28,676 bases of DNA, taken from IMG/VR virus record IMGVR_UViG_3300031825_000379, positions 1 to 28,676 of that record. One strand, 5' to 3'. This DNA comes from a virus. Below the pieces are notes generated by a model, which saw only the letters and a list, made by a program, of their open reading frames with translations, did no database searches and was not told the origin of the DNA. Position 1 is the first letter of the stretch, and each line of letters begins with the position of its first letter. This document shows positions 1,297-28,305 of the stretch, piece by piece. Made by a program: the position numbers and the translations under genes.

Positions 1297-1321
1297 GGTT
1301 CTCCTTCCGGTTGGTGCGGCG

Positions 1322-1798
1322 TCAGGGCTGACGCCGCGTGATCTCCCGCTCGACGTAGTCGCGTTCGCGGGGCGTGAGGTGCTGGATGCGGGTCTCGAGC
1401 ACCTCCAGGTCGACCCAGAGTTCCTCGGCGGTGTCGTCGTTGACGCGTCCACGCGTCCACAGCAACGCGTCGACGAGGTGATCGAGTTCGATCAGCTGAC
1501 GCGCCGTGAGGCGCTCGACGACGCGCTCCTCCCGCGGCCCGAAGTACGGATGATCGGGCACTGGGCCGCGCTCGTAGTGTGTGAGCTCGTGGGTGAGGGT
1601 GCTTCGGCGCTCGGCCTGATTGCAGGTCTTGTCGATCTCGATGCCGCGTCGGGTGACGTGGCCGGCTGATCCTTCGGCGGGGTCGACGAAGTGCACCCGC
1701 AAGTGGGGGTGATGGTCCCGGATGTACCGCCATGGATGCCATTTCGATGACTTCACCATGGCGGTATTAGAACACCAGTTCGATGGATAATCTTTCAC
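1322..1798 (-). CDS. ImmA/IrrE-like HExxH metalloprotease
   Basis: A 158-residue predicted zinc peptidase. The motif HELTH at residues 70-74 gives the two zinc-binding histidines and the catalytic glutamate; acidic residues in REERVVERL (about 89-97) could give the third ligand. Small proteases of this kind sit beside integrase and repressor genes in many actinophages. In ICEBs1 the related ImmA cleaves the repressor ImmR. By analogy (inference) it may destroy the repressor encoded at 3539-4159. The start is uncertain: the GTG at 1798 has a weak GGGGG upstream, while the ATG at 1759 (MVKSSKWHPW) has no visible ribosome site but begins where the family-like sequence begins. It is separated from the upstream lysogeny genes by 88 bases and so may have its own promoter. 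Confidence 0.85.
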   Translation of the reverse strand: MKDYPSNWCSNTAMVKSSKWHPWRYIRDHHPHLRVHFVDPAEGSAGHVTRRGIEIDKTCNQAERRSTLTHELTHYERGPVPDHPYFGPREERVVERLTARQLIELDHLVDALLWTRGRVNDDTAEELWVDLEVLETRIQHLTPRERDYVEREITRRQP

Positions 1799-13790: not shown

Positions 13791-14635
13791 GCCAGCCCAC
13801 CGCCCTCAACGCCCGCAGCGTGCTCGCCATGCTCGACAAGCACTACAACGCACCCAACCGACCGAAGAGCTGGCTGTTCGCTCCCGAGATCCAGGCACCG
13901 CACTCCGACCGGCGGGCAGACCTGATCGTCGCCCCACTGTCGAGCACAGCAGGGGAGAAGATCATCGGCCACGAGATCAAAATCTCCCGCGCAGACGTCC
14001 TCGCCGAACTGGCGACGCCGATCAAGCACGACGACTGGGCCAAGTACTGCACGCAATGGTGGCTCGTCATCGCGGACCCGGCACTGATCGACGGCCTCGA
14101 CATCCCCGCGCACTGGGGCGTCATGGCACCGCCGTCCGGCCGACGCACACGCTCGATGACAATCCTGAAGCCAGCGCCCGAGCTGAACCCGCACAGTACC
14201 GAGGCAGCGTGGGCGAAGCTCGCCCGTTGGACCGCCTTCCGTGCCGAGGAGCGGGTCACCAAGCTGCAATACGAAGCGCAGTACGACCAGCGGAAGATCG
14301 AAAGCCTCAAGCAGAACGTCCGCGAGCTCCGGACGTCTGGTGCCGGTGGTCTGTCGCCTGCCTTGCGCCGAGCGCAGGAAATCGTCGACGAGGTCACACA
14401 GCGGTGCAACGACGAGGGCATCTGGTTCCGGCACGAGCCCGGCCTGGTCGCCGACGCCGTCGTCGATGTGCTCGCCACCCGTGAGGCAGCGCAGACCCAA
14501 CGCCGGGAGATCGAGAACATCGAGCACGCGCTACGCCCGAAGTTCAACGGGCTCGCCGACGACATCGCGAAGGCCAAACGTCTCGCCGCCGCTGTCAAAC
14601 CACAGCTCGTCAACCGAGGAGGCCCCCGTGGGTAG
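13787..14635 (+). CDS. MmcB-like PD-(D/E)XK nuclease
   Basis: A 282-residue protein. The N-terminal domain (about 8-125) matches the MmcB-type nuclease pattern: RRADLIVAP (D45), then GHEIKISRADVLAEL (E63-x-K65), KYCTQWWLVIAD and IPAHWGVMAP. MmcB in Caulobacter is linked to mutagenic DNA repair. The C-terminal half is a long coiled region (EERVTKLQYEAQYDQRKIES, then EIENIEHALRP). It ends by overlapping the terminase-small-subunit candidate by 8 bases. In phage such a nuclease might degrade host DNA, process branched DNA or act in packaging; the sequence does not tell which. Confidence 0.75.
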   Translation: MSQPTALNARSVLAMLDKHYNAPNRPKSWLFAPEIQAPHSDRRADLIVAPLSSTAGEKIIGHEIKISRADVLAELATPIKHDDWAKYCTQWWLVIADPALIDGLDIPAHWGVMAPPSGRRTRSMTILKPAPELNPHSTEAAWAKLARWTAFRAEERVTKLQYEAQYDQRKIESLKQNVRELRTSGAGGLSPALRRAQEIVDEVTQRCNDEGIWFRHEPGLVADAVVDVLATREAAQTQRREIENIEHALRPKFNGLADDIAKAKRLAAAVKPQLVNRGGPRG

Positions 14636-15155
14636 CACCAGCCCCACCGACCCCCAGAACTTGGACGCGTCGGAGAAGGCGCGTCAGGCGCTGGCTGCGC
14701 GCCGGGACGGGAAGCAGTGGGCAGAGATCGCTGACGAGCTCGGCTATGCGGATGCGTCGGGGGCGTACCGGGCAGCGAAGCGACTCCTCGACCGGACCGA
14801 GTTCGAAGCGGTGGAGGAGTACCGAGCGATCGAAGCGGACCGTCTGGACGAGGCGCACCGCATCCAATACGACCGGTTGAAGACGGCGGTGGATAGGGGA
14901 GCGGACTTGTCGGCGGTGGCGTCGGCGGTGTCAGCGATCGTCCGGATCTCCGACCGTCGCTCGAAGCTCCTCGGACTGGACGCCCCCACCCGCGTCGACG
15001 TGGCGCACAGCGGCGAGGACTTCGCTGCCACCGCCGCCAAGTTGATGAAGGAGATCGGTCTGGCCGTGCCCTCCGAGTTCACGCCCGACGAGGACAGCGC
15101 CGAGGCCGAAGACCAGGACGGCGAGCAGGACGGGGGCAACCCATGGGTGCGGTAG
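14628..15155 (+). CDS. Terminase small subunit (putative)
   Basis: A 175-residue helical protein with an N-terminal helix-turn-helix (SEKARQALAARRDGKQWAEI, ADELGYADASGAYRAAKRLL), a central helical hairpin (EEYRAIEADRLDEAHRIQYD, SAVASAVSAIVRISDRRSKL then LGLDAP) and a disordered acidic tail. This HTH, coiled middle and LGLDAPxR motif pattern is typical of actinophage small terminases that recognise packaging sites. The GTG at 14628 has GAGGAGG 5 bases upstream. The large subunit lies 1.5 kb downstream, with several small genes between, which is unusual but seen in actinophages. Confidence 0.78.
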   Translation: MGSTSPTDPQNLDASEKARQALAARRDGKQWAEIADELGYADASGAYRAAKRLLDRTEFEAVEEYRAIEADRLDEAHRIQYDRLKTAVDRGADLSAVASAVSAIVRISDRRSKLLGLDAPTRVDVAHSGEDFAATAAKLMKEIGLAVPSEFTPDEDSAEAEDQDGEQDGGNPWVR

Positions 15156-15337: not shown

Positions 15338-15705
15338 CACTCGACATGGCCTGCCCCGTGTGTCATGCGGCGTTCATCCCGCCGGAGGACGCACCCGCCT
15401 ATCCGCCGGACGGTTCCGTGGCGGTGTGCGTCACCTGTGCCGACGTCGTGGTGTGGAACCAGACCCGTGGCTGGGAGCTCCCAGACGCGGACCACAAGGC
15501 GGAACTGCTGGAACTGCAGCCCGTGATCGACTCCCTGATGGAGATCCGACAGTGGCACGACCAGCACGAGAAGGACCGGGAGACGCTGCGCTCGCTGATC
15601 TCCCACGGGTACCTCGTCGGATCGAGCATCACCGACATCGTCGAGGCCATCCTCGACAACGGCTTCCACCGCCACCCGGACAACGCGGAGGACAACGATG
15701 CCTGA
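15334..15705 (+). CDS. Zinc-ribbon hypothetical protein, 123 aa
   Basis: The N-terminal 45 residues form a zinc ribbon (MACPVCHAAFIPPED ... VAVCVTCADVVVW), followed by a helical, acidic-basic region (LMEIRQWHDQHEKDRETLRS, SITDIVEAILDNGF). The GTG at 15334 overlaps the previous stop. Function is unknown. Small ribbon proteins like this are common between terminase genes in actinophages. Confidence 0.72.
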   Translation: MTLDMACPVCHAAFIPPEDAPAYPPDGSVAVCVTCADVVVWNQTRGWELPDADHKAELLELQPVIDSLMEIRQWHDQHEKDRETLRSLISHGYLVGSSITDIVEAILDNGFHRHPDNAEDNDA

Positions 15706-16210
15706 GGAACCAACCCTGTCCGACACCGACAACCCGGATACCGGCCGACAACGGGACGGCGGTGGACTTCGCCCGACACGTGGCCGTCCCGCATCCCCGC
15801 GCCGAGGAGACTGCCGAACAAACGCCTGGCAGCCCGACGACAACCTCATCACTGCCGCCCAGGCCGGCCAACTCCACATCCGCAACCTCAGCTGCGAAGA
15901 CCGATCCTGGGTGGTCGCCGGACTCACCGCCCGCGGTGTCACCGCCGAAGACACCGCCCACATGCTCCGCTGCTCACTCAGGTTGATCAAACAGATCCGG
16001 GCGAACCCGATGACCGCAGTCTCGCTCTATGCGCAAACCATCGCCGTCGAGGTCGAGACCGCCCGACTCCACGCGAAGACAGCGAAACGCGCACACGCCT
16101 ACGAGCTCGAGGATCTGCGGATGACCGCGGAACGGTACAAGAAGCAACGCGATGACCTGATCGACCAGCTCGCCGCCCAGGCACGCCGAGCGGAGAGGCA
16201 GGACGCATGA
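15698..16210 (+). CDS. Putative HTH DNA-binding protein, 170 aa
   Basis: An HTH segment (CEDRSWVVAGLTARGVTAED, TAHMLRCSLRLIKQIRANP) in the middle is followed by a long basic coiled coil (TARLHAKTAKRAHAYELEDL, QRDDLIDQLAAQARRAERQ). The N-terminal 45 residues are disordered and arginine-rich. Position next to the large terminase might make it a packaging-linked or late regulatory protein. It is a possible activator for the late motif downstream, but that is speculation. It overlaps the previous gene by 8 bases. Confidence 0.7.
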   Translation: MPEEPTLSDTDNPDTGRQRDGGGLRPTRGRPASPRRGDCRTNAWQPDDNLITAAQAGQLHIRNLSCEDRSWVVAGLTARGVTAEDTAHMLRCSLRLIKQIRANPMTAVSLYAQTIAVEVETARLHAKTAKRAHAYELEDLRMTAERYKKQRDDLIDQLAAQARRAERQDA

Positions 16211-16250: not shown

Positions 16251-16625
16251 ATGTACCTCGGTGAAGAGCCCCGCACCACCCCAACACCCGCCGGCCACAT
16301 CGAACGACTCGAAACGAGTATTGCCCGCACCGTCCACGAGATCGACGAGCTCCGCGCCGAGAACACCCGGCTACGGGCCCTGCTGCCCGGCTTCGAGACC
16401 ACCACCCTGCACACCACCGACCACCTGAAGACAGTTCGCGAAGCATTGTGCGTCGCTCAGGCGGCGATCGGGAACTTCCCGAACCGACCCCTCAACTGGC
16501 CTCAGCACATCCCGCATTTGCAGCGACTGATCGACGACATCGACCGACAGCGACCGCTCGGACCGAACGGCAAGCACGGCAACCTCCACACACCCACCTG
16601 CCAATGCGAGGACAAGGCCGGGTAA
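16251..16625 (+). CDS. Leucine-zipper-like hypothetical protein, 124 aa
   Basis: A helical protein with a zipper-like stretch (IERLETSIARTVHEIDELRA, ENTRLRALLPGF) and a C-terminal tail ending in CQCEDKAG. The ATG at 16251 is chosen because GAAAGGG is 9 bases upstream; a GTG at 16233 in frame would add six residues. A nine-codon ORF (16207-16236) precedes it and may be only a spacer. Function is unknown. Confidence 0.68.
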   Translation: MYLGEEPRTTPTPAGHIERLETSIARTVHEIDELRAENTRLRALLPGFETTTLHTTDHLKTVREALCVAQAAIGNFPNRPLNWPQHIPHLQRLIDDIDRQRPLGPNGKHGNLHTPTCQCEDKAG

Positions 16626-16627
16626 CG

Positions 16628-18265
16628 ATGGACGAGGACCCCGTCGAGAAACTCCACGAACACACCCGCGGCTGGCCAGCCGAACGCAAAGATGCACTGA
16701 TGCTGTGGCTCCGGGCGCAGCACACCCGCCACGTCATCCAATCCCGATACCAACACCCTGCGGAGCTGGCAGCCGCCGTCGACTCGAACTTCGTGATCAC
16801 TCCTGCAGTCGACGTCATCTCCCGGACCGTGGAGCGTGTCATCCGCGAGCCGCAACGCAACCTTCTCGTGACGATGCCCCCGCAAGAAGGCAAGAGCTCC
16901 CTGTGCGCCATCTGGGCGCCACTCCGCGCCCTGCAGCTCAACCCAGACACCCGCATCATCGTCGCCGCCTACGGTGACGCCCTCGCCGAAGACCACTCCC
17001 GCGCCGCCCGCGGCTGGATCGAAACCGCCGGCACCGGCGCCGTCGACGCCATCACCGGACAACCCGTCGAAGACAAACTCGGCCTGCAACTCTCCCGCAC
17101 GTCCACATCCGTGTCGTCCTGGCAGGTCGCCGGAGGCAAAGGCGGATACAAAGCCGTCGGCCTCGGCTCATCCATCACCGGCCGCGCCGCCGACCTCCTC
17201 ATCGTCGACGACCCCTACAAGAACATGCAGGAAGCCGACAGCGTCGCACACCGCCGCAAAGTCTCGGAGTGGTTCAAATCCGTCGCGCTCACCCGACTCT
17301 CCCCGGACGCGTCGATCATCCTCATCCAAACCCGCTGGCACGCCGAAGACCTCTCCGGCGAAATCCTCGCCGCCGAGCAGGAACTCCCACCCCACCAACG
17401 CACGTGGCGGCACATCAACATCCCCGCCGTCTCCGAAGCCGGTATCCCCGACGAACTCGACCGGCCCCCAGGTGTCGCCATGACCTCCGCACGAGGCCGC
17501 ACCCCAGCACAGTTCGCCACCCGACGCCGCCAGGTAGGGGAGCGTGTCTGGTACGCCCTCTACCAAGGCACCCCCACACCAGCCGAAGGCGGCCTGTTCA
17601 CCCGCACATGGTTCGACACCCACAAGCTCGAGAAGCAGCCGGACCGCTCCACCATGCGCATCGTCGCCGTCGACCCCGCCGAAACCGGGGAAGGCGACGA
17701 GGCCGGCATCATCGCCGCAGCCCTCCTCCCCGACGGCACAGTCGCCCTGACTCACGACCGGTCCGAGCAGATGACCTCCGAGCAGTGGGGGCAGGCCGCC
17801 GTGAGACTCGCGATGGAAACCCACGCCAGCGAGATCGCCGTCGAAACCTACACCGCCGGCACCACCTACGTGAACGTCGTCAAACGGGCCATCAAGGCAT
17901 ACCGAGACAAACTCCGCGCCGGGTTTGACGGGGCAGACCGTGAGTCCGCCGCAGCCATCCGCCGCACCCACGACCTCAAGGTGTACCCGTGGCGGGGCAA
18001 GGGGGACGCGGTGGCACGGTCTGCCCTGTTGCGTCAGGCGGTGGAGGTCGGCACCTGCAGGACCGTCACATCCGAAATGACCACGCTGGTCGAGCAGGCC
18101 GTCACGTGGCAGCAAGGACAACATCAACCCGACCGAGTCGCCGCCGCGATCATCGCCCACGACCGACTGATCGCCCGCGGTGGGCGTACCTCGAGTCTCG
18201 GCAACCCCACCCGCCCGGCCACCACCGCGCCGGCCCCGAACTGGCTCACCCGCAAAATCGGATAG
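16628..18265 (+). CDS. Terminase large subunit
   Basis: A 545-residue DNA-packaging motor. The ATPase domain shows Walker A MPPQEGKSS (about 83-91) and Walker B LLIVDDP (190-196), with the coupling motif near ILIQTRWHAEDL. The nuclease domain has the first acidic residue in IVAVDPAETGEGDEAG, a second in IAVETYTAG and a third in PDRVAAAIIAHDR, the RNase-H-like set. Length is normal for siphovirus large terminases. The ATG at 16628 follows the previous stop by two bases. It would dock on the portal encoded at 18921-20810. Confidence 0.95.
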   Translation: MDEDPVEKLHEHTRGWPAERKDALMLWLRAQHTRHVIQSRYQHPAELAAAVDSNFVITPAVDVISRTVERVIREPQRNLLVTMPPQEGKSSLCAIWAPLRALQLNPDTRIIVAAYGDALAEDHSRAARGWIETAGTGAVDAITGQPVEDKLGLQLSRTSTSVSSWQVAGGKGGYKAVGLGSSITGRAADLLIVDDPYKNMQEADSVAHRRKVSEWFKSVALTRLSPDASIILIQTRWHAEDLSGEILAAEQELPPHQRTWRHINIPAVSEAGIPDELDRPPGVAMTSARGRTPAQFATRRRQVGERVWYALYQGTPTPAEGGLFTRTWFDTHKLEKQPDRSTMRIVAVDPAETGEGDEAGIIAAALLPDGTVALTHDRSEQMTSEQWGQAAVRLAMETHASEIAVETYTAGTTYVNVVKRAIKAYRDKLRAGFDGADRESAAAIRRTHDLKVYPWRGKGDAVARSALLRQAVEVGTCRTVTSEMTTLVEQAVTWQQGQHQPDRVAAAIIAHDRLIARGGRTSSLGNPTRPATTAPAPNWLTRKIG

Positions 18266-18269
18266 CCCC

Positions 18270-18290
18270 TGCACGGTGCGTCTTTACCGT
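18270..18290 (+). promoter_or_regulatory. Late promoter-like element, copy A
   Basis: TGCAC-N4-CGTC-N2-TACCGT, four bases after the terminase stop. It is one of four copies with identical spacing (TAC 15 bases after the T of TGCAC). The small membrane gene starts at 18299, nine bases after the hexamer and with no ribosome site, so TACCGT may be a -10 and the messenger leaderless. Confidence 0.6.
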
Positions 18291-18298
18291 TGCGCGCC

Positions 18299-18625
18299 AT
18301 GGACGGTCTCACACTCCTCGTACTCCTCCTCTACGTCCTCGCCGTCATGCGAGCCACCCGCCTCATCAACGCCGACACCATCCTCGACACCCCCCGCATC
18401 TGGCTACTCCGCCGCTTCGGCCCTGAGTCGACGCTCGCGTACTTCATCTCCTGCCCCTGGTGCGTGTCCATCTGGATCGCCGGCATCTCCGCCCCGTTCG
18501 TCCTGTGGGCCCTCGAACTCCCACTGTGGCTGTGGCCGCTCCTCGGACTCGCCGCCTCGCACCTGACCGGCCTGGCTGCGCAGCTCGACGGCGACGACCT
18601 CGAAATAGAAATCGAAGACGAGTAG
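18299..18625 (+). CDS. DUF1360-like membrane protein
   Basis: A 108-residue protein with about three hydrophobic segments (LTLLVLLLYVLAVM; CVSIWIAGISAPFVLWALEL; LWLWPLLGLAASHLTGL), the pattern MRATRLINADTILD near the start and CPWCVSIWIA in the middle. Both are typical of DUF1360-type membrane proteins common in actinophage late operons. The acidic tail (DGDDLEIEIEDE) faces the cytoplasm. The ATG at 18299 has no Shine-Dalgarno site, and the first bases follow promoter-like element A directly. Role in virion assembly or lysis is unknown. Confidence 0.78.
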   Translation: MDGLTLLVLLLYVLAVMRATRLINADTILDTPRIWLLRRFGPESTLAYFISCPWCVSIWIAGISAPFVLWALELPLWLWPLLGLAASHLTGLAAQLDGDDLEIEIEDE

Positions 18626-18629
18626 CCCC

Positions 18630-18851
18630 ATGGATACTGAGGACATCCAGAAGTTGATGGGAGCGGCCCTTCGCAAGCGCGCCGCACAGGGTGGCCGGCA
18701 CCTGCATCACCGCGATTGCATTCACAACCTGCCGCCCGAGGAGCAGATCGCGATTCGCGGCAAGACCGTTGAGTGGTGGATGGCGATGGTCGGCTCGATG
18801 CCTGAGCAGATCACGCCGGACCAATGGGAGACCGAACCGCTGAGTGGATAG
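18630..18851 (+). CDS. Hypothetical protein, 73 aa
   Basis: Not recognised. A small helical protein (MDTEDIQKLMGAALRKRAAQ, then PPEEQIAIRGKTVEWWMAMV) with HLHHRDCIH in the middle, which could hold a metal. It starts four bases after the previous stop and precedes the portal by a 69-base gap that carries element D. Codon use agrees with its neighbours. Confidence 0.65.
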   Translation: MDTEDIQKLMGAALRKRAAQGGRHLHHRDCIHNLPPEEQIAIRGKTVEWWMAMVGSMPEQITPDQWETEPLSG

Positions 18852-18893
18852 CCTGCTCGGCCGCAACGCGTGCTTTGCGACGCGGTCTGACCC

Positions 18894-18914
18894 TGCACCC
18901 TTCGCCTCTACCTT
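18894..18914 (+). promoter_or_regulatory. Late promoter-like element, copy D
   Basis: TGCAC-N4-CGCC-N2-TACCTT in the gap before the portal gene. The hexamer ends seven bases before the portal GTG (18921), where no ribosome site exists, again consistent with a leaderless start. A loose hairpin (GGCCGC with GCGGTC, 18859-18887) sits just upstream and may mark a terminator. Confidence 0.6.
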
Positions 18915-18920
18915 CTGGTC

Positions 18921-20810
18921 GTGGCCCGCAGAGTCAAGATCCGACGCACCCCCCGACACCGGGGAACGCTGACCGCTGCCGGTCAGAAGATCACCGACCC
19001 CTCGAAAACCTTCAAATCATCGATGGGATCCTCAGGCTCCAACTGGCAAGAACAAGCCTGGGAGTTCCTCGACAAGGTCGGCGAACTGCGCTACTACGTC
19101 GGCTGGCGCTCCGCGTCCGTCGCCCGATGCCAACTGATCGGCTCCGACCTCGACCCCGACACCGGCCGGCCCACCGGCTACACCGAGAACGCCACCGTCC
19201 GGAAGATCGTCCGCGACATCGCCGGCGGTGTCACCGGGCAGTCTCAGATCCTCAAGCGACTCACCACAGGACTCACCGTCCCCGGTGAAGGGTTCGTCGC
19301 GATGATCGTCCGTGACAGTGAATCCCACGACACCTACTCCGACGGATCGCCTCTCTCGCTCGAGGACCAGCAGCAGGGCGAGTTCCAGGAATGGATCGTG
19401 CTGTCCCGCGACGAAATCAAAGCCTCCGGATCGGACGGTCTTGAGTTCACCCTCGAAGACGACTCCAAGCACCTGTTCGACGAGGAACGGGACCTGCTGT
19501 TCCGGGTGTGGAACCCCCACCCCCGCAAAGCATCGGAAGCCGACTCCCCGGTCCGGGCCGCCGAGGACGCCCTCCTTGAGATCGTCCGCACCACCAAGTC
19601 GATCGACAACGCCGCCAAGTCCAGGCTCGTCGGTAACGGCATCGTGTTCGTCCCGCAGGAAATGTCACTGCCCGAGCAGAGCGCGCCCGGCGCCACCCCC
19701 ATGACAGGAGACGCCCCGGGCCCCGACTACGGGGTGCCGTACGCCGCACCCTCCGCATCCCAGCAGTTGCAGGACTTGCTGTACCAAGTCGGCACCACGG
19801 CCTACAAGGATCAGGAGTCGATGGCGGCGTTCATGCCGATCATCGCGTCGGTGCCGGGGGAGTGGACCGACAAGGTCAAGCACGTCACGTTTGACTCCCA
19901 GGTCGCCGAAACCAGCCTCAAGACTCGTGAGGCTGCGATCCGCCGGCTCGCCATGTCCCTCGACGTCGCACCCGAACGCCTCCTCGGACTCGGCTCCCAC
20001 AGCAACCACTGGTCCGCCTGGGCCATCGCCGAAGACGACGTGAAGGTCCACGTCGTCCCGGTGCTTGAGACCATCGTCGCGTCGCTCACCCAGTTCATCC
20101 TCCGGCCTCTGTTGGAGAAGGAAGGCATCGACCCGGACCAATACGTCATCTGGTACGACACGACACCTCTCACTCAGGACCCGGACAAGAAGGCCGAGGC
20201 GAAGGACGCGCATGACCGAGGTGGACTCACCACCAAGGCGCTGCGCAAGTACTCGGGGTTCGACGACTCCGACGGATACGACCTCACCACCGCCGAAGGC
20301 TGGCAGGAACTTGCCCGCGACAAGGCCGCCGCCGACGTGTCACTCATCCCCACGCTGGCGCCGCTGCTCGGCGGCGTAGCCACCCAGATCACCCCACCAC
20401 CGCAACAGCCCGCGATCGACGCTCCCACCGACACCACCCGGACCGCTCCGGAGTCGGAGACGCTGCCCGAGTCCGAACCCGTCACCCAACCCGACTCCAC
20501 CGACGAACCCGACACCGTGACAAGCGCAGCCGTCCTGGTGTTCGTCGAGACCTTCACTGCGCGGGCCCTCGAACTCGCCAACAAGCGCAGACGCAACCGA
20601 GCCAATGCGGCCCAGTTCCGCGACGTCCCGATTCACCTGGCACACCGCAACCTGCCCGCCGTCCCGGCCGCCGAAGTGCCGAAGCTGATCGAAGGATGGG
20701 ACACCTCGGTCCCCTGGGGCGCGGTCGAACGACTCGGGTTCACCCGCCGCACCATCGCCTCATGGGTGGAGCGCGACGCCATCGACGAACTCACCAAGGT
20801 GGCTGGCTGA
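18921..20810 (+). CDS. Portal protein
   Basis: A 629-residue portal, the dodecameric ring at the capsid vertex through which DNA enters. The core has portal-like features: VGWRSASVARCQLI, a clip/wing region with FRVWNPHPRKASEADSPVRA, then SKSRLV-like AAKSRLVGNGIVFVPQEMSL, and a long loop/wing with LDVAPERLLGLGSHSNHWSA, the common phage portal turn in the stem. The N-terminal 35 residues are very basic. The C-terminal 100 residues are acidic and threonine/proline-rich, then helical (VERLGFTRRTIASWVERDAI). The GTG start has no ribosome site. Gene order and length fit actinophage siphoviruses. Confidence 0.92.
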   Translation: MARRVKIRRTPRHRGTLTAAGQKITDPSKTFKSSMGSSGSNWQEQAWEFLDKVGELRYYVGWRSASVARCQLIGSDLDPDTGRPTGYTENATVRKIVRDIAGGVTGQSQILKRLTTGLTVPGEGFVAMIVRDSESHDTYSDGSPLSLEDQQQGEFQEWIVLSRDEIKASGSDGLEFTLEDDSKHLFDEERDLLFRVWNPHPRKASEADSPVRAAEDALLEIVRTTKSIDNAAKSRLVGNGIVFVPQEMSLPEQSAPGATPMTGDAPGPDYGVPYAAPSASQQLQDLLYQVGTTAYKDQESMAAFMPIIASVPGEWTDKVKHVTFDSQVAETSLKTREAAIRRLAMSLDVAPERLLGLGSHSNHWSAWAIAEDDVKVHVVPVLETIVASLTQFILRPLLEKEGIDPDQYVIWYDTTPLTQDPDKKAEAKDAHDRGGLTTKALRKYSGFDDSDGYDLTTAEGWQELARDKAAADVSLIPTLAPLLGGVATQITPPPQQPAIDAPTDTTRTAPESETLPESEPVTQPDSTDEPDTVTSAAVLVFVETFTARALELANKRRRNRANAAQFRDVPIHLAHRNLPAVPAAEVPKLIEGWDTSVPWGAVERLGFTRRTIASWVERDAIDELTKVAG

Positions 20811-23188
20811 TGTACCCCGACAACCTCGCCCGCGCCCTCTCCGCGCAGCTCGACGCCGAACGGGCCATCGAAGCGTTGACCATGGCTGCGTTCGAAGCGT
20901 GGCTACCCCACGTGAAAGCCGCAGTCCTCCCTTCGCTCACCGCATCCGTCGAGCTTCCCCCAGACCCGGACCAGGTCCCCGCAACCGCCGGATGGTGGGA
21001 GCTGGCCCTCGACCAGGCGATCCTGTACGGCATCGGCCTGGTCTACGGCCACGAACTACTCGCGGTGCTCTCCGGTGCCGGCGCCGCAGCCGCATCCTTG
21101 GAGACCACCGACCCCGACGACGAACTGTCGAACACAGCGCTCGCGCGCCAGGCCCGCAAGATCGTGGCGTCCTCACTCGGGGTACCGACATCCGAGATCA
21201 CAGCGCTCGACCGCAGACTCGCGTCGCTCCCGTCGGTTCGTACCATCCAGGCGGAGTATCTCGCGCAGGTCCGCAACCGAATGGTGAACACCCCAGAGGC
21301 GGTGTTCCGCGACATCACAGTCCAACTCGACCAGGCGATCACCGCCGGCGAGGGACCGGACGCGCAACGCAGGAGGGTCCAGCAGTTCCTGTCCCCGACG
21401 ACGGGAGACTGGACAGGCCGGGCAATGACCGTGGCCCGGACAGAGTCAGCGGGCGCGATGTCGCACGCCACCATCGAAGCCGCTGCGCTGCGCAACGAGG
21501 TGCTCGGTGAGGAACTCGAGCAGACGTGGATCTGCACCCTCGACTCGAAGACACGCCGGTCGCATTGGGCCGCCGACGGTCAACGAGTCCCACTGGGAAG
21601 CACCTTCAGCATCGGCCGCGCACAGCTCCGCTTCCCCGGCGACCCGCGAGGCCCGGTGGAAGAGGTCGCCAACTGCAGGTGCCGGGTCGCGGTACTCGCC
21701 GTCGACGAACCCCTGCCGACCGAGCAGGACCGGCACACCGAACGTGGACCCGGGAACTCCACGGTGATCAACCGCGCCGGCTCACAACAGGACGAGATCG
21801 AACGACGCGCCGAGGAAGGAAACATCCGGGCACGTGAGGACCCTGCCGGACTCGGTCGGGTGGCATCCATCAACACGGAGGACGACATGGCAGACGACGA
21901 GACCACAGAGGACACGGCAGTAACCTTCCGGACGTTCACCGACGCGGTGATCGCCGTGCTCGGCACCCCGACCGACGACCGCCGCATCCTCGCCGCGGAC
22001 ATGGACTTCCGGTTCCGCGAGTTCCCCCTGCCGGTGATGTGGACCAAGCAGTCATCCGGCGGGCACTTCGACGCATACACAGTCGGGGTCATGGAGTCCG
22101 CCCGCGTCGACGGATCGCAGATACTCGCGTCCGGGTACCTGCTCAACACCGACGAGGCCGACGAAGCAGCCGATCAACTCGCACACAAGGTCACCGGACC
22201 CTCAGTGGACCTCGGCGACGCCGAATGGACCTACACGAACGAGGCCGGTGACGAGATCACCGAAGAGATGTGGGAGGACGCCTACGACTCAGGTGAGGAA
22301 CTCAAGGTCTACGAGACCATCACCTCGGCGAAGCTCCTCGGTGTCACCCTCGTAGCGACCCCCGCATTCGGGCAAACCACAATGCAGCTCGACGCCGAAC
22401 GAGTATCCAAGGACATCGCGGTCGTGGCCTCCCTGGTCGCCGCCGCTGCACGCCCGATCGACGAAACCTACGACGCCACGCTGTTCGCCGACCCCCAGCT
22501 CGACGGACCAACCCCGGTCACCTATGACGCGAAGACCGGCCGGATCTACGGGCACCTCGCCTGCTTCGGGCAGTGCCACGTCGGGATCACCGATCAGTGC
22601 GTCGTCGCGCCCCGATCAAAGACGGACTACGCGCACTTCCACACATCCCCTCCAGTGCTCACCACCGACGGCCGGCTACCGGTGGGTCGCCTGACCGTGG
22701 GCACCGGGCACGCCGGCCCGCGCCTCGGCGCCCGGCCAGCAGCGGAGCACTACGACAACACCGGCACGTGCTTCGCCCTCGTGCGGGTGGGGGAGGACGA
22801 GCACGGCATCTGGTTCTCCGGCATACCGCACCCCACCGCCACCGAGGAGCAGATCCGGGCCGGCCTGTCCGCACCGCTGTCCGGGGACTGGCGCACCATC
22901 GGCGGCAACCTCGAGCTGGTCGCCGCGCTCGCGGTGAACACACCCGGATTCCCCGTCCTGGTCGCCGGAGCATCCGACGAGAACGACCGCCCCCGCACCC
23001 TCGTCGCCTCGCTCGGGCCCCGCGCCGAGTCCAAGCGCAGCGGGCGAGTGGACCCGAAGCGTTTGGCGCAGGAAGTGGTCCGCGAGATGCGGGCCCAGGA
23101 CCGCCGCAACGAGCAGGCCCGCGCGGTGCTCGCAGCAGCAGAACGTCGCCGCGAAGCACGCGCGATCATCGAGAAGGCAGGAGTCTGA
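20810..23188 (+). CDS. MuF-like head morphogenesis protein fused to capsid maturation protease
   Basis: A 792-residue fusion. Residues 1-300: head-morphogenesis (SPP1 gp7/MuF) part, with VARTESAGAMSHATIEAA (208-225), then TLDSKTRRSHWAADGQ and EEVANCRCRVAVL (284-296). About 360-560: protease-like part, with HFDAYTVGVMESARVDGSQI, AHKVTGPSVDLG and KLLGVTLVATPAFGQT. About 590-740: a conserved actinophage head domain (YGHLACFGQCHVGI, HYDNTGTCFALVRVGEDEHG then IWFSGI, SGDWRTIGGNLELVAAL). A basic coiled coil ends it. An in-frame ATG at 21887 with GGAGGA four bases upstream could yield the protease separately. It starts on the last base of the portal stop. Confidence 0.85.
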   Translation: MYPDNLARALSAQLDAERAIEALTMAAFEAWLPHVKAAVLPSLTASVELPPDPDQVPATAGWWELALDQAILYGIGLVYGHELLAVLSGAGAAAASLETTDPDDELSNTALARQARKIVASSLGVPTSEITALDRRLASLPSVRTIQAEYLAQVRNRMVNTPEAVFRDITVQLDQAITAGEGPDAQRRRVQQFLSPTTGDWTGRAMTVARTESAGAMSHATIEAAALRNEVLGEELEQTWICTLDSKTRRSHWAADGQRVPLGSTFSIGRAQLRFPGDPRGPVEEVANCRCRVAVLAVDEPLPTEQDRHTERGPGNSTVINRAGSQQDEIERRAEEGNIRAREDPAGLGRVASINTEDDMADDETTEDTAVTFRTFTDAVIAVLGTPTDDRRILAADMDFRFREFPLPVMWTKQSSGGHFDAYTVGVMESARVDGSQILASGYLLNTDEADEAADQLAHKVTGPSVDLGDAEWTYTNEAGDEITEEMWEDAYDSGEELKVYETITSAKLLGVTLVATPAFGQTTMQLDAERVSKDIAVVASLVAAAARPIDETYDATLFADPQLDGPTPVTYDAKTGRIYGHLACFGQCHVGITDQCVVAPRSKTDYAHFHTSPPVLTTDGRLPVGRLTVGTGHAGPRLGARPAAEHYDNTGTCFALVRVGEDEHGIWFSGIPHPTATEEQIRAGLSAPLSGDWRTIGGNLELVAALAVNTPGFPVLVAGASDENDRPRTLVASLGPRAESKRSGRVDPKRLAQEVVREMRAQDRRNEQARAVLAAAERRREARAIIEKAGV

Positions 23189-23189
23189 C

Positions 23190-23381
23190 ATGGGATGCGG
23201 TTGCGGACGTCGAGCCGGATCGACACTCGCCGGCAGCAGCACGGCGACGTCGTACACATACAAGGTGACTTTGCCGTCCGGTGAGGAAGCCACCTACCTC
23301 ACCCCGCTCGAAGCGAAGCGGGAAGTCCGGCGCGCGGGTGGCGGCACCATCGTCCGCGTCGCCGACACACCAACCTCCTGA
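23190..23381 (+). CDS. Small MGCGCG-type head-region protein, 63 aa
   Basis: A 63-residue protein starting MGCGCGRRAG, then a small beta domain (TSYTYKVTLPSGEEATYLTP then LEAKREVRRAGGGTIVRV). Proteins with this CGC start and a two-strand body are common between protease and capsid genes of actinophages. Function is unknown; it may be a minor head component. It follows the fusion gene by one base and is the last gene before a strong terminator. Confidence 0.75.
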   Translation: MGCGCGRRAGSTLAGSSTATSYTYKVTLPSGEEATYLTPLEAKREVRRAGGGTIVRVADTPTS

Positions 23382-23397
23382 CCCCGCTGCAGCAGCG

Positions 23398-23433
23398 AAC
23401 GGCCTCGGCACCCTCTCGGTGTCGGGCCGTTTT
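23398..23433 (+). terminator. Rho-independent terminator between protease and capsid blocks
   Basis: AACGGCC (23398-23404), a single bulged T, then CGGCACC (23406-23412) pair with GGTGTCG and GGCCGTT (23418-23431) around a 5-base loop, 14 pairs including one G-U. The 3' arm runs into TTTT (23430-23433). It is followed without a gap by promoter-like element B. Confidence 0.8.
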
Positions 23434-23453
23434 GCACGGTCCGTCTCTACTCT
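23433..23453 (+). promoter_or_regulatory. Late promoter-like element, copy B
   Basis: TGCAC-N4-CGTC-N2-TACTCT, starting on the last T of the terminator at 23398-23433. This placement implies it begins a fresh transcript for the capsid gene. The predicted leader (about 23460-23543) holds a hairpin, CCAG-ac-AACAG with CTGTT-CTGG (23460-23484), and a normal ribosome site. Confidence 0.65.
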
Positions 23454-23543
23454 CCCGAACCAGACAACAGGAGTCCTGTTCTGGCTGTGGGCCGGGGACC
23501 TCCAACGTCACGACTGATACAGGAAACGAGACGAGGAGTCCCC

Positions 23544-25286
23544 ATGGACCCGTTCGAACTGCCCGAGGAGATGCCAACCGACCTCGCAGGTCTGGCGGAG
23601 CTTCGCGCCCAGGCAGAGGCGTCGTTCAACGAACTGCGCGAGATCGTCAACAGCGGCGAGGACCTGACCGAAGAGCAGCTCGAGCAGCTGCGCTCCCTCG
23701 CACGGGACATCTCCACCATCGACACCGCCACCCAGGAGGCGGAGCAGGCCGAGGCCGAGCGCCGCGCCGAGGTCAACGACCTCATCTCGCAGGTCTCCGG
23801 GCAATCCGCCGAGAGCGACGAAGACAGCGACGACGGCGAGACCGACGAGACTGGAGACAACACCGGCGAGAACGTCGAGGGTGCCGACGAAGTGTCGCAG
23901 GACGACGTCGACGCCGTCGTCACCGAAGCCGAAACGACCGCAGCCGAGGCCGCCGAATCCGTCGCCGCATCCGGCCGCCGCCGCACCAACTTCTCCGGCG
24001 CCGGCAACGGTCGCAAGACCAAGATCCCCGCGCCGAAGAAGCCGGACATCGGCTGGCGCATGGACTCCAACGTGTTCGGCTTCAAGCCCGGAAAGGTCGG
24101 CTTCGCCGATCTCGCCGAAGCCGTCGAATCGGTCCGTCCCGGCAGCCGGGTACGCGCAGGCCGACCCGTCCGCGGCGGATTCACCGGCCAGACCCTCGGC
24201 CGCCTCGACCGCGACATGCCGCTCGTGGAAACCAGCCACGAACTCGTTGCCGCGATCGAGAAGGCCACCAACGAGAAGACACTGCCCGGCGGATCACTGA
24301 CCGCAGCCGGCGGCTGGTGCGCGCCGTCCGAGCAGCTCTACGACTTCTGCGAGGTCCCCCAAGCCACCGATCTGGTGTCCCTGCCGGAAATCGCCATCCG
24401 CCGAGGTGGTGTGCGCTGGCCCGTCGAACCGGACCTGTCCGCGATCTTCGACTCGTTCCAGTTCTTCTTCACCGAACCGCAGCTCGAAGCAGTCGACGTC
24501 GACGGCAACCCCACCGCCATCAAGGAATGCGTCGAGGTCCCGTGCCCCGACGAGTTCGAGGAACTGCGCCTCAACGCAGTCGGCTACTGCGTCGAAGCCG
24601 GAATCCTGCAGAACCAGGGCTGGCCGGAGCTGATCGAGTGGTTCATGCGCTCGCTCACTCAGGAGCACTTCCGGGCCCTGTCCAAGCGCACGGTCACCGA
24701 CATGGTCACCGGGTCCACGCCGCTGACCATCCCCGTCGATGCGCAGATCGCTGCCGGATCGTCGATTCTCAACAGCCTCGCGCTGATGGCGACGAACTTG
24801 CGTCTCGATCGTGGCCTGGGCCGTACCGCCACCATCGAAGGTGTCGCGCCGTCGTGGTTGCACGAGGTCATCCGCGCCGACCTGGCAAACCAGCAGGGCA
24901 CGGACACCAAGGCTGTCACCGACACGCAGATCAACAGCTGGCTGGCGGCCCGTAACATCGCCCTCCAGTTCGTCGGTGACTGGCAGACCCGCGGCGCCGG
25001 CCTGCCGGGCAACCTGCAGACAGTCGTCTATCCCGGCACCGTCGACGTCCTGCTCTACCCGGCAGGCACCTGGTTCCGGTCGCTGTCGAACGTGATCGAG
25101 CTGGGCGTGATGTACCCGAAGGAACAGCTCCAGGTGAACCGGTACACGCGCTTCTTCATCGAGGACGCGATCGCCGTCGGTAAGCGCTGCAACCAGTCAC
25201 TGAACGTGACCATCCCGATCTGCCCGTCCGGGGCTATCGGGGCACGTCAGACGGTTGCGTGCAACACCCCGGAAGTCACGCCCTAA
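23544..25286 (+). CDS. Major capsid protein with fused N-terminal scaffold domain
   Basis: A 580-residue protein. Residues 1-150 are an acidic, helical, coiled-coil delta/scaffold region (ELREIVNSGEDLTEEQLEQL; long runs of D, E and A), ending in a basic linker (ASGRRRTNFSGAGNGRKTK). From about 165 on it reads as an HK97-fold shell protein, with ETSHELVAAIEKATNEKTL, GGWCAPSEQLYDFCEVP, LPEIAIRRGGVRWPVEPDLS, VGYCVEAGILQN and FIEDAIAVGKRCNQSLNV. The scaffold part is probably removed by the protease encoded upstream. The ATG at 23544 has GAGGAG six bases upstream. It is followed by two hairpins. Confidence 0.88.
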   Translation: MDPFELPEEMPTDLAGLAELRAQAEASFNELREIVNSGEDLTEEQLEQLRSLARDISTIDTATQEAEQAEAERRAEVNDLISQVSGQSAESDEDSDDGETDETGDNTGENVEGADEVSQDDVDAVVTEAETTAAEAAESVAASGRRRTNFSGAGNGRKTKIPAPKKPDIGWRMDSNVFGFKPGKVGFADLAEAVESVRPGSRVRAGRPVRGGFTGQTLGRLDRDMPLVETSHELVAAIEKATNEKTLPGGSLTAAGGWCAPSEQLYDFCEVPQATDLVSLPEIAIRRGGVRWPVEPDLSAIFDSFQFFFTEPQLEAVDVDGNPTAIKECVEVPCPDEFEELRLNAVGYCVEAGILQNQGWPELIEWFMRSLTQEHFRALSKRTVTDMVTGSTPLTIPVDAQIAAGSSILNSLALMATNLRLDRGLGRTATIEGVAPSWLHEVIRADLANQQGTDTKAVTDTQINSWLAARNIALQFVGDWQTRGAGLPGNLQTVVYPGTVDVLLYPAGTWFRSLSNVIELGVMYPKEQLQVNRYTRFFIEDAIAVGKRCNQSLNVTIPICPSGAIGARQTVACNTPEVTP

Positions 25287-25294
25287 TCGGACTA

Positions 25295-25324
25295 CCCCGG
25301 GACGTCCCCTCGGGGCGTCCGGGG
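25295..25324 (+). terminator. Strong hairpin after the capsid gene (first)
   Basis: CCCCGG (25295-25300) and ACG (25302-25304) pair with CGT (25316-25318) and CCGGGG (25319-25324), and an inner CCC/GGG closes a CTCG tetraloop. Twelve pairs with two single-base bulges, eight bases after the stop. No T tract follows, so it may slow or process transcripts rather than end them. Confidence 0.55.
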
Positions 25325-25332
25325 TTGTGACT

Positions 25333-25374
25333 CGGAACGGGTGCGGCACGTGAGGCCGTCCCGCACCCGTTCCG
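25333..25374 (+). terminator. Strong hairpin after the capsid gene (second)
   Basis: CGGAACGGGTGCGG (25333-25346) is perfectly complementary to CCGCACCCGTTCCG (25361-25374), a 14-base stem around 14 loop bases. No T tract follows. Together with the preceding hairpin it could stabilise the capsid messenger and reduce read-through, giving more capsid than downstream protein. Confidence 0.55.
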
Positions 25375-25405
25375 GGAACCACCCGAACCTCACCAGGAGC
25401 CAGCT

Positions 25406-26182
25406 GTGACTGCACCGACCACCCTTCTCCCCGTCGACTACGACGCGCCTCCGGTCAACCCCATCGGGGTCGGGCTGTTCTCGGCGGCGAACCTGATCGA
25501 CTCCACGGGCCCGTCCCGGATCCTGCACGGGGTCGAAATCCGGCCGCGCAACTGTGCGACCGGCTGGGGCACCTGGGACGCCGATCCCTGTAAGGACCCC
25601 GAGCCCGGCACACTCAAGTCCGGTGACCGCCCCGTCGCCGGAGACCCGTTCGACGCCCTGGTCGTGTGGGGCTACGACGAGTGCGGCCCGCTGGAGGACT
25701 TCACCGAGTACGAGGCCCGCGCACTACAGAACGCCCGGCTGCACGAGCAGGCCCTCGCCGAGGCGCACTTCGGGGCGCGACTCGACGCCGACACCACCAC
25801 CCCAACCGCCGTCGCCGACCTGGTGGCCGCGGTGGCCGAGCTGGAGACAGAACTCGCCGCCTCCGCCGGGTTCTACGGCACGATCCACGCCTCGACCCGC
25901 TTCGCTGCGTACGCCGCGCAGGCCAACCTGATCGTCCGGTCCTCCGGATCTCCGGTCCTGCGCACCCCGCTCGGTCACACGTGGGTGTTCGGCGGGGGAT
26001 ACGACGACACCCTCGGCACCAAGATCGTCGCGACCGGTCCGGTGACCGTCTGGCGTGATGCATACACCACGCGTTCCACGCTCGACGAGCGGCACAACAT
26101 CAAGGCTGCCATCGCCGAACGCGCCGTCGTCGTCGGCTACGAGTGCCTGGTCGCCTCGGTCGACGTCACCCCGACCCCGTAG
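25406..26182 (+). CDS. Putative head structural protein, 258 aa
   Basis: Not matched to a named family. A 258-residue protein directly after the capsid gene, with GVGLFSAANLIDSTGPSRIL, a cysteine-bearing loop (RNCATGWGTWDADPCKD), a helix pair (RALQNARLHEQALAEAHFGA, VADLVAAVAELETELAA) and then beta-rich text (STRFAAYAAQANLIVRSS; LGHTWVFGGGYDDTLGTKIV). Position and size suggest a capsid-associated or head-completion protein. GTG start with AGGAG eight bases upstream. Confidence 0.72.
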   Translation: MTAPTTLLPVDYDAPPVNPIGVGLFSAANLIDSTGPSRILHGVEIRPRNCATGWGTWDADPCKDPEPGTLKSGDRPVAGDPFDALVVWGYDECGPLEDFTEYEARALQNARLHEQALAEAHFGARLDADTTTPTAVADLVAAVAELETELAASAGFYGTIHASTRFAAYAAQANLIVRSSGSPVLRTPLGHTWVFGGGYDDTLGTKIVATGPVTVWRDAYTTRSTLDERHNIKAAIAERAVVVGYECLVASVDVTPTP

Positions 26183-26193
26183 AAGGGACTGTC

Positions 26194-26562
26194 ATGCCTG
26201 CCGGAGTGGAAGTCATCGTCGAGGACGGCTTCGCGACCGTCACCCCCGAACCCGCCGAGCGCGGCCGGGTGCTGACCGCGCTGCTCGCTGCCGTCGACGA
26301 GCCCTCACAGATCCGCACCGACACGTCTGGGCGGCGCCGCGCGTATGTCGTGTTGGAGCAGGACGCTCGCAGGGCGGGTCTGCTCGATCAGCGGAAGCCT
26401 GCCGTGAAGAAGATGGCGGCGAAGAAAGCGGCGCCAAGGAAGGCCACGGAGAGGCCCGACGATGTGGGGAAGGCGGACACCAGTGAGGTGGACACGGACA
26501 CGGAGGCGGACGCAGCGCTGACCGACCCGCCGAACCTGCCGTCTACTCCGGTACAGCAGTAG
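26194..26562 (+). CDS. Putative head-tail region protein, 122 aa
   Basis: Not recognised. The N-terminal 70 residues are a small beta/alpha domain (MPAGVEVIVEDGFATVTPEP, RVLTALLAAVDEPSQIRTDT, AYVVLEQDARRAGLLD). The C-terminal 50 residues are low complexity: lysine/alanine-rich (VKKMAAKKAAPRKATERP), then acidic and proline-rich. A ribosome site GAAGGGA precedes the ATG. It may be a connector or capsid-decorating protein, but this is from position only. Confidence 0.65.
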   Translation: MPAGVEVIVEDGFATVTPEPAERGRVLTALLAAVDEPSQIRTDTSGRRRAYVVLEQDARRAGLLDQRKPAVKKMAAKKAAPRKATERPDDVGKADTSEVDTDTEADAALTDPPNLPSTPVQQ

Positions 26563-26577
26563 TCCAGGCAGTAGCCG

Positions 26578-26853
26578 ATGTTCGGGATCACCGCACAACA
26601 CCTGTCCCAGCCGACCACGATCCTTGGCCTGCTGATCGTGCTGATCATCATCGGCGGCCTCGTCCCGAGGTGGCTCTACACCTCCGTTCTGAAGATCAAG
26701 GACGACGTCATACGGGATCTGCGCGAAACCAATCGCGAGCAGGCCCGGCATATCGACCGGCTCATCACCGGCACATCCACGGGTGTGCGCGTGGCGGAGT
26801 CGATCCACGAAACCGTGCTCGAGGCAGACACAACTCAGGCGGGTGACAGGTGA
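26578..26853 (+). CDS. Single-span membrane protein with cytoplasmic coil (holin-like?)
   Basis: A 91-residue protein with one strong membrane segment near the N-terminus (TILGLLIVLIIIGGLVPRWL) and a charged helical tail (IKDDVIRDLRETNREQARHI). This form is seen in some actinophage holin-like proteins. It is the first of three small genes placed between head and major tail genes. The lytic role is a guess; no endolysin is in the window. Confidence 0.65.
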   Translation: MFGITAQHLSQPTTILGLLIVLIIIGGLVPRWLYTSVLKIKDDVIRDLRETNREQARHIDRLITGTSTGVRVAESIHETVLEADTTQAGDR

Positions 26854-27044
26854 TGTGGGGGTGGGCGGGACGGGTCAAGCAAGCCAGGATCGAACGCGCC
26901 GAAGCGGCCCGGGAACTGGAAGAGACACGCCGTCACGGCAGGGAAGTGGTCGATCCTCTCGTCGACCGAGCCGAGGCAGTCATCCGGCGTAACCACTTCG
27001 GCGAGGCAATCGAGAACGCCATGGGCAAGAGGAGACACGCATGA
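26853..27044 (+). CDS. Small charged helical protein, 63 aa
   Basis: A 63-residue, mostly helical, very basic and acidic protein (RVKQARIERAEAARELEETR, VDRAEAVIRRNHFGEAIENA). The ATG at 26853 shares a base with the previous stop (TGATG); a GTG at 26850 would add one residue. The stop overlaps the next start. It probably works with its two membrane neighbours, to which it is tightly coupled. Confidence 0.62.
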   Translation: MWGWAGRVKQARIERAEAARELEETRRHGREVVDPLVDRAEAVIRRNHFGEAIENAMGKRRHA

Positions 27045-27415
27045 TCAACGCGGCGCTCGCTGTCGCTGCCGCACTCGGTGGGCTCGTCATCCTGATCTTC
27101 CCTGCGGAGACAGAGGCGAAGATCTTGATCTTCACCATGACCGTCTTGGCGTGGACGTTCGTCGTCACGTACGCGCTGCGCTCACCGTGGCGATCAACGC
27201 AGGCCGGCCGGTCCGTGATGGCGACGACCATGTCGATTGCGCTGATCGGTACACAGCTCGCATCGGTGTGGTGGTTCGGCGACTACCCGGGTCGGTCCGA
27301 GGTCCGCTCGATGGTGATCCTCGCGCTGGTGCTGACGCTGCTGCATCGGCTGCTGGTGCTGCGGCGCATTCAGCACGCTGACGCAGACGACGGACCGGAT
27401 TCCACCGCCCTCTGA
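27041..27415 (+). CDS. Multi-span membrane protein, putative holin
   Basis: A 124-residue protein with about four membrane helices (INAALAVAAALGGLVILIF; ILIFTMTVLAWTFVVTYAL; MATTMSIALIGTQLASVWWF; VRSMVILALVLTLLHRLLVL). The markers ALRSPWRSTQAGRSVM and DYPGRSEVRSMV recur in actinophage membrane proteins that are often annotated as putative holins. A lysis role is not proven, as it lies far from any lysin visible here. ATGA overlap with the 63-aa gene. Confidence 0.68.
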   Translation: MINAALAVAAALGGLVILIFPAETEAKILIFTMTVLAWTFVVTYALRSPWRSTQAGRSVMATTMSIALIGTQLASVWWFGDYPGRSEVRSMVILALVLTLLHRLLVLRRIQHADADDGPDSTAL

Positions 27416-27417
27416 CG

Positions 27418-27438
27418 TGCACGCCTCGTCGCTACTGT
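27418..27438 (+). promoter_or_regulatory. Late promoter-like element, copy C
   Basis: TGCAC-N4-CGTC-N2-TACTGT, two bases after the stop of the holin-like gene. Predicted start point near 27445, giving about 45 bases of leader before the major tail protein, which has its own ribosome site. Confidence 0.6.
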
Positions 27439-27489: not shown

Positions 27490-28305
27490 GTGGCAGTGTT
27501 TCCGGTCGTCAAAGGCACACGCCTGAGGGCGACGAAGGTCAACTCGTGTGGTCTCCCGGTGTCCGGCAACGCGAACTATGCGGTGACGGAAGGCTGGGTG
27601 TCCCTCGCAATCTCGCCCGTGATGCAGGAGGCGGAGGAGCTGGAGCAGCGCAACGCGGAAGGCCGCGTCTGCGTCGCCGAGCGCACCCCGCCCGAGCGGA
27701 AGTACTACAACCTCACGCTGACGCTGTGCCAGGTGAACACCTGCCTGATCTCGCTGTTCAACGGCTGGGAGCAGGAACTCGACTGGGACGGCAACGCCGT
27801 CGGTCTGCGTGACCAGCGCAAGGTCGAGTCCGACTACGGTGTGGCCCTCGAAGTCTGGGCCGGTGGCAAGGCCGGGAACGACTGCCCGACGCCCGAGGAC
27901 GACTCGATCTTCTCCGGTGCCGGCACCGGTAAGTCCTACGGTTACTTCCTCACGTTCGGTACCGAGTTCACCCTCGGTGACATCGAGATCGCGGCGTCGG
28001 TCGCGAACTTCACGCTCACCGGCATCACGTTCGCCGGTCCGCAGTGGGGTCGTGGCCCGTGGAACGTGGTCGCCATCGATGCTGCGAATACGCCCGGTCG
28101 TTTGCTCGCCCCGGTCACCGATGAGCAGCATCTGGTTATTCAGCGCACGCCGATCGCGCCGCCGGAGCCGACTCCGGGTGAGGAATGCTGCCCGCTGGAC
28201 ATTGCGGGTGTGTTCGAGGCTCCGGACTACTACTTTGGTGGTCCGGCCTCCGAGCCCGCGGCGGACGTTGCTCCTCCGCAGGCTGCGTGCGTGCTCACCC
28301 CTTAG
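27490..28305 (+). CDS. Major tail protein (tail tube)
   Basis: A 271-residue protein resembling actinophage tail-tube subunits: VKGTRLRATKVNSCGLPVSG at the start, VTEGWVSLAISPVMQEAEEL, then NAEGRVCVAERTPPERKYYN, LCQVNTCLISLFNGW and LRDQRKVESDYGVALEVWAG, all in the expected order for this family. The end is proline/glycine-rich and disordered. GTG start with AAGGAG upstream. A single tube type suggests a long non-contractile tail. No tail-assembly chaperone follows in the window. Confidence 0.82.
   Translation: MAVFPVVKGTRLRATKVNSCGLPVSGNANYAVTEGWVSLAISPVMQEAEELEQRNAEGRVCVAERTPPERKYYNLTLTLCQVNTCLISLFNGWEQELDWDGNAVGLRDQRKVESDYGVALEVWAGGKAGNDCPTPEDDSIFSGAGTGKSYGYFLTFGTEFTLGDIEIAASVANFTLTGITFAGPQWGRGPWNVVAIDAANTPGRLLAPVTDEQHLVIQRTPIAPPEPTPGEECCPLDIAGVFEAPDYYFGGPASEPAADVAPPQAACVLTP

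Follow-up and report, generated by a model that had tools for sequence, protein, structure and literature searches.

A spacing-locked TGCAC-N10-TAnnnT element before actinophage late genes, a probable class of phage-specific late promoters

We describe a short DNA element, TGCAC-N10-TAnnnT, that precedes late genes in a family of actinophages. Comparison of sequences makes it very probable that its sites form a class of late promoters peculiar to this phage family, and it gives good support to the element being spacing-locked, strand-locked, late-gene-specific and phage-specific. We found no earlier description of the element in the open-access literature that we searched; one may exist elsewhere.

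Four copies in an IMG/VR proviral record

The element was noticed in a viral record of 28676 bases from IMG/VR (the whole stretch analyzed, hereafter "the window"). The portal protein encoded there is 45-48% identical to those of Gordonia phage Sour, Mycobacterium phage Obutu (kin of cluster B), Tsukamurella phage TPA2 and Nocardia phage NTR1. The nearest relatives are other IMG/VR proviral records, one of which is a prophage in Rhodococcus sp. SMB37. The features of the window that concern us are as follows.

1-1452, minus strand: integrase
Between integrase and packaging module: repressor-like helix-turn-helix (HTH) gene and early region
15698-16210, plus strand: gene A (phrog_25770/phrog_928, function unassigned), HTH followed by one long helix; candidate late activator
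16508 onward: packaging and structural module (terL, DUF1360, portal, MuF/protease fusion, major capsid, holin-like, major tail)
16508-18265, plus strand: large terminase gene (terL), 5' of the first motif copy
18270-18290, plus strand: site 1, TGCAC (18270-18274), N10, TACCGT (18285-18290); predicted leaderless promoter of the DUF1360 gene (ATG at 18299)
18299-18625, plus strand: DUF1360/phrog_781 small protein gene, a membrane protein in annotated relatives
18894-18914, plus strand: site 2, TGCAC-N10-TACCTT (hexamer 18909-18914); predicted leaderless promoter of the portal gene (GTG at 18921)
18921-20810, plus strand: portal gene (phrog_776, cluster-B type)
23433-23453, plus strand: site 3, TGCAC-N10-TACTCT (hexamer 23448-23453); predicted capsid promoter, leader of about 84 nt
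23544-25286, plus strand: major capsid gene (phrog_777)
27418-27438, plus strand: site 4, TGCAC-N10-TACTGT (hexamer 27433-27438); predicted major tail promoter, leader of about 45 nt
27490-28305, plus strand: major tail protein gene (phrog_792)

A preliminary description of the window had reported four copies with the same spacing, starting at 18270, 18894, 23433 and 27418, each ending in six bases that fit TAnnnT and each in a gap before the small membrane, portal, capsid or major tail gene. We found all four to be exact and on the same strand, with the hexamers and downstream genes as described, the small gene being the DUF1360 gene. The late region spans 11798 bases, of which only 488 are intergenic, and all four copies lie inside those 488; of the five late gaps that reach 33 bases or more, four contain a copy. 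The early region, where no copy had been noticed, had none in a mismatch scan of the window. That scan returned zero further copies with 1 or 2 mismatches to the full original pattern, which also included a CGYC block. The next-best matches in a scan allowing up to 3 mismatches all had exactly 3 and resembled chance, so that nothing fell between the exact copies and these. The full pattern appeared 0 times in Markov simulations (orders 1-4, 200 per order), and the core TGCAC-N10-TAnnnT had a mean of 0.07-0.16 occurrences versus 4 observed. A reversed-pattern control found 0 copies in the window. An Rfam scan over the whole window gave no match, and hence no known RNA element.

Two other features of the late gaps were seen. 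The sole gap of comparable size without the motif (25287-25405), which separates the capsid gene from the one after it, bears a GC-rich inverted-repeat-like stretch. About 30 bases past the predicted capsid promoter lies a leader element, CTGG[CT]-N5-GCCGGG (window 23477-23500), in which a short hairpin is possible and for which there was no Rfam match. Further copies precede capsid, tail and tape-measure genes in NTR1 and in the motif-free phages VanDeWege, TurkishDelight and Gaea (L043, which is NTR1, at 19815-19838 and 24066-24089; L050 at 12607, 15911 and 20159; seven places in L051).

Conservation, spacing and start-codon geometry

The preliminary description held that absence of the motif from the same places in close relatives would speak against a promoter; we found that close prophages and more than 10 remote lineages keep it before equivalent genes. 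In near relatives the copies differ from the original pattern by at most 3 changes and leave TGCAC-N10-TAnnnT intact. Site 1 is retained by 6 of 6 near relatives and departs there from the full original pattern at 0-2 bases; one of the near relatives (L009) is a fragment that stops before the fourth place. The longer prophages among them carry eight sites per genome, the extra ones belonging to the adaptor gene, a 154-aa gene just 5' of the tape measure, the tape measure itself, and the lysis region (one site).

Motif carriers comprise Rhodococcus prophages, cluster B mycobacteriophages, and Gordonia, Nocardia, Tsukamurella and M. abscessus phages. Capsid and major tail sites were present in Manad (B1), Laurie (B2), Obutu, ChrisnMich (B4), Taptic, the M. 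abscessus prophage GD43-6, Dori, harman and Imvubu; these sites are orthologous between phages and partly reflect shared ancestry, so that such counts overstate independence. NTR1 has the element before its major tail gene and a TGCAT variant at the capsid site. In Sour and TPA2 the TGCAC before the major tail gene is followed by N10 and then TTCGAT, not TAnnnT. In cluster B, late promoters often carry a weaker form of the element (AGCAC, AACAC or CGCAC), and in some of them none could be recognized. Six phages with remote portals (VanDeWege, TurkishDelight, OneinaGillian, Wilde, Kozie and Gaea) had no N10 site in the 20-30 kb inspected of each.

The CGYC block fared differently from the rest of the proposed pattern. 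It is present in the window copies and near relatives, but remote phages keep only TGCAC-N10-TAnnnT, and CGYC is therefore local. We rejected it both as a part of the general element and as an ECF-sigma -10, as it is not conserved outside near relatives.

As a held-out test we fetched the first 30 kb of Rhodococcus phage ReqiPine5, in which a structure search had named a relative of gene A. It holds four N10 sites, all forward, at the portal, capsid, adaptor and tape-measure genes, the last two 7 bases before an ATG; there were 0 sites at spacings 6-9 and 11-15, and 0 in reverse. The major tail gene and gp21 of this phage have TGCAT-N10-TAnnnT variants.

Across 21 phage sequences, TGCAC-Nx-TAnnnT at x = 10 occurred 65 times forward and 2 times in reverse. 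Among the other spacings from 0 to 30, the most frequent was x = 18 (8 in total, all in NTR1), and the rest had at most 5 each. Many of the 65 matches come from near-identical prophages, and 54 sites from 17 sequences were reduced to 41 by similarity removal. In these 41 sites, 0.6 bit was surpassed at only two further positions, -8 and -1 relative to the hexamer, both occupied by pyrimidines. Information stayed at or below 0.13 bit throughout -29 to -21, in agreement with the earlier remark that a conserved -35 is lacking, and a sigma-70 promoter scan of the late region was at chance level. A canonical -35 hexamer 16-18 bases 5' of the -10 was rejected on both counts, as was an extended -10 (TGn next to the -10), with T at -3 in 6 of 41 sites and G at -2 in 5 of 41. 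The eight N18 copies of NTR1 (6 forward, 2 reverse), found only there among the sequences scanned, are perhaps early promoters with a TGCAC-type -35.

The hexamer is an ordinary actinobacterial -10, and we considered whether TGCAC-N10-TAnnnT might be a host promoter class, or a promoter of a host alternative sigma, that the phage uses. The Rhodococcus lysogen genome has 28 N10 matches, of which 9 are in the prophage. On the chromosome outside the prophage, N10 stood at 19 versus 14 for N9 and 20 for N11, which is background. This lack of an N10 excess bears out the label "phage-specific" of the preliminary description and led us to reject the host class. A spacing of 10 bases also misfits the usual two-element sigma promoter, and we regard a host origin as very improbable.

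The distance to start codons is likewise informative. In the Rhodococcus prophages, 5 of 8 sites lie 6-8 bases 5' of a start codon, as if the hexamer behaved as the -10 of leaderless mRNAs. This geometry matches M. smegmatis, where SigA prefers TAnnnT as its -10 and leaderless mRNAs make up 24% of the total (PMC6448022). The phage element resembles those SigA promoters in its TAnnnT hexamer, a predicted -10, and in a start codon 6-8 bases downstream of several sites, and differs from them in its fixed TGCAC at -27 to -23 and in having no enrichment in the host chromosome. We then aligned late genes of 12 phages only on a TAnnnT lying 4-9 nt before the start, using a set hand-picked from the major late genes and hence illustrative. 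The slot in that alignment came out nGCAC-like (G 25/40, C 36/40, A 23/40, C 23/40, with 36/40 being C at -13 from the hexamer). Early genes had such a TAnnnT in 17 of 274 cases and CAC in the slot in 0 of 274. In the sequences compared, the element sits before late genes and is absent from early genes, as a phage late promoter dependent on a phage activator would be.

Cluster K start-associated sequences are short directional intergenic elements as well, of another sequence and not tied to a -10 at a fixed distance. Cluster A stoperators, too, are multiple short, directional intergenic elements of actinophages (PMC3029335), and the one-directional intergenic repeats seen here resemble them. 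We therefore weighed whether the sites could be repressor or silencer sites of this kind, or chance repeats. Stoperators have another sequence and no fixed distance to a -10, unlike the TGCAC element, whose coupling to TAnnnT is fixed, whose start codons lie at 6-8 bases and which is found at late genes only. Cluster B phages also retain the motif, and the portions of them that were inspected carry no repressor or integrase annotation. We regard silencing or chance as very improbable.

Gene A, a candidate activator

We asked which protein might read TGCAC. Gene A, just 5' of terL on the early side, with its conserved part downstream of 15818, is among the few proteins common to the early side of the window and to remote motif-positive phages; it has matches in Sour, NTR1, TPA2, GD43-6, Taptic, G007 and Manad. 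A tblastn search found it in 496 phage records (467 Mycobacterium, 20 Gordonia, 3 Rhodococcus, 2 Mycolicibacterium, 2 Tsukamurella, 1 Nocardia and 1 Skermania), none of them named Microbacterium, Streptomyces or Arthrobacter. A portal search likewise found 467 Mycobacterium records, together with 129 Microbacterium, 18 Arthrobacter and 17 Streptomyces; the equal Mycobacterium counts suggest, short of proof, that these are identical records. Contigs fetched by gene A alone held the motif in 21 of 24 cases, with 69 N10 matches versus 9 at N9, and the three without it are fragments of less than 20 kb. Gene A is present in all motif-positive phages whose full length was checked, and no match to it turned up in motif-free relatives. 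Because it accompanies the motif in this way, gene A is the best candidate activator of the late promoters, a role to which we give about even odds.

The gene A family has a strongly conserved CSLRLVR helix, and its structural model (pLDDT 85) consists of an HTH and a 66-residue helix. There are weak matches to sigma-region-4 and homeodomain-like HTHs. In most relatives a zinc-finger-like C-terminus follows, which the Rhodococcus prophage and NTR1 proteins lack. A PDB sequence search did not identify gene A, a PDB fold search had no match with E under 0.001, and neither a MotA/AsiA match nor a small-terminase family match was found for the family in Pfam, NCBIfam or PHROGs. Relatives in Sour and prophi79-1 are annotated as HNH endonucleases (L053 6864-7400 and L069 15920-16540), and their conserved part is the HTH.

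Gene A could instead be a small terminase subunit, or another packaging or recombination protein, that co-occurs with the motif through common descent. A protein with an HTH and a coiled coil, encoded beside terL as it is in the window, Taptic and Dori, would be consistent with a small terminase subunit; the one weak fold match is to a phage protein, 2ao9 (E 1.7); and gene A is distantly similar to phrog_645, members of which precede terL in Gaea and TurkishDelight. However, gene A and terL are widely separated in Sour and the lytic phages of cluster B, where other small genes surround gene A; the motif-positive phages checked end to end retain it without exception, as noted above; and phrog_645 is the more general small-terminase candidate. 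We consider a packaging role rather unlikely. The phrog_645 protein of the window (14577-15155; PHROG 645 is labeled RNase E) is an HTH protein, with relatives directly 5' of terL in Gaea and TurkishDelight, and is more likely a small terminase or a regulator. Manad gp1 (L044 10-567) is annotated as a small terminase subunit, a name that PHROG 800 also carries; Pfam assigns its entire length to a P-loop nucleotide kinase.

It is also possible, though somewhat unlikely, that the sites are late promoters whose TGCAC is read by a different phage DNA-binding protein or by a modified host polymerase. Three proteins come into question: (i) phrog_645 proteins, which have sigma-region-4-like HTHs and are also common to these phages; (ii) a 73-aa DNA-binding protein common to cluster B, Nocardia, Tsukamurella and G006 phages; and (iii) WhiB proteins, encoded by Taptic and GD43-6. 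Yet phrog_645 occurs also in the motif-free VanDeWege, TurkishDelight and Gaea, which makes it less likely as the specific activator, G001, GD43-6 and Taptic gave no match to the 73-aa protein, and WhiB genes are annotated in only two of the phages inspected. Among the DNA-binding genes examined, only gene A tracked the distribution of the motif.

Proposed mechanism and relation to known systems

The preliminary description proposed a phage-specific late promoter or activator site. Comparison upholds the spacing, placement and specificity in that proposal and not its CGYC part; the role in initiation and the activator are what we infer. We propose that host RNA polymerase with the housekeeping sigma (SigA) reads TAnnnT as a -10, and that TGCAC, at about -27 to -23, stands in for the missing -35 as the binding site of a phage-encoded activator. 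Transcripts would start 6-8 bases past the hexamer. The DUF1360 and portal mRNAs, and in relatives those of the adaptor, tape measure and lysin, would then be leaderless, and the capsid and major tail mRNAs would have leaders of about 45-90 bases. After induction a phage protein, most likely that of gene A, would bind TGCAC, recruit or position polymerase and do the work of sigma region 4. The gene A product should be absent in the lysogen, leaving the late genes off.

T4 middle promoters are alike in having a housekeeping -10, no -35 and a phage element at a fixed short distance 5' of the -10, and they need a phage activator, which was shown there and is proposed here (PMC2988021). The MotA box, (a/t)(a/t)(a/t)TGCTTtA, is centered at -30, 12 +/- 1 bp from the -10 (PMC2988021). 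It is AT-rich, in contrast to the TGCAC found here exactly 10 bp from the hexamer, before late genes and in phages of GC-rich hosts. Membership in the T4-type family of sigma appropriation was rejected on the spacing (10, not 12 +/- 1 bp) and on a sequence unlike the consensus (PMC2988021). Mycobacteriophage early SigA-like promoters use the host polymerase and a -10 hexamer, as proposed here for the late element, and unlike it have a recognizable -35 and repressor operators (PMC9262239).

Characterized late promoters of mycobacteriophages are few, and their high activity makes them worth study (PMC9262239, a 2022 review). TGCAC-N10-TAnnnT is a precise signature of probable late promoters that can be read from genomes. 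It covers cluster B, among the largest mycobacteriophage clusters, and reaches Rhodococcus, Gordonia, Nocardia and Tsukamurella phages and M. abscessus prophages. The comparison also names one candidate activator of previously unassigned function, gene A, so that late control becomes directly testable. With slightly less than even confidence, we suggest that about 500 sequenced actinophages may have one late-transcription system, in which a phrog_928 protein (a stand-alone sigma-region-4-like HTH with a long coiled coil) binds TGCAC within the would-be -35/-10 spacer, replaces sigma region 4 and drives strong, often leaderless late promoters. Such a system would be an independently evolved actinobacterial equivalent of sigma appropriation. 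If true, it would explain the timing of capsid and tail genes in these phages, provide a promoter/activator pair for actinobacterial genetics, and add a new example of polymerase redirected without a -35.
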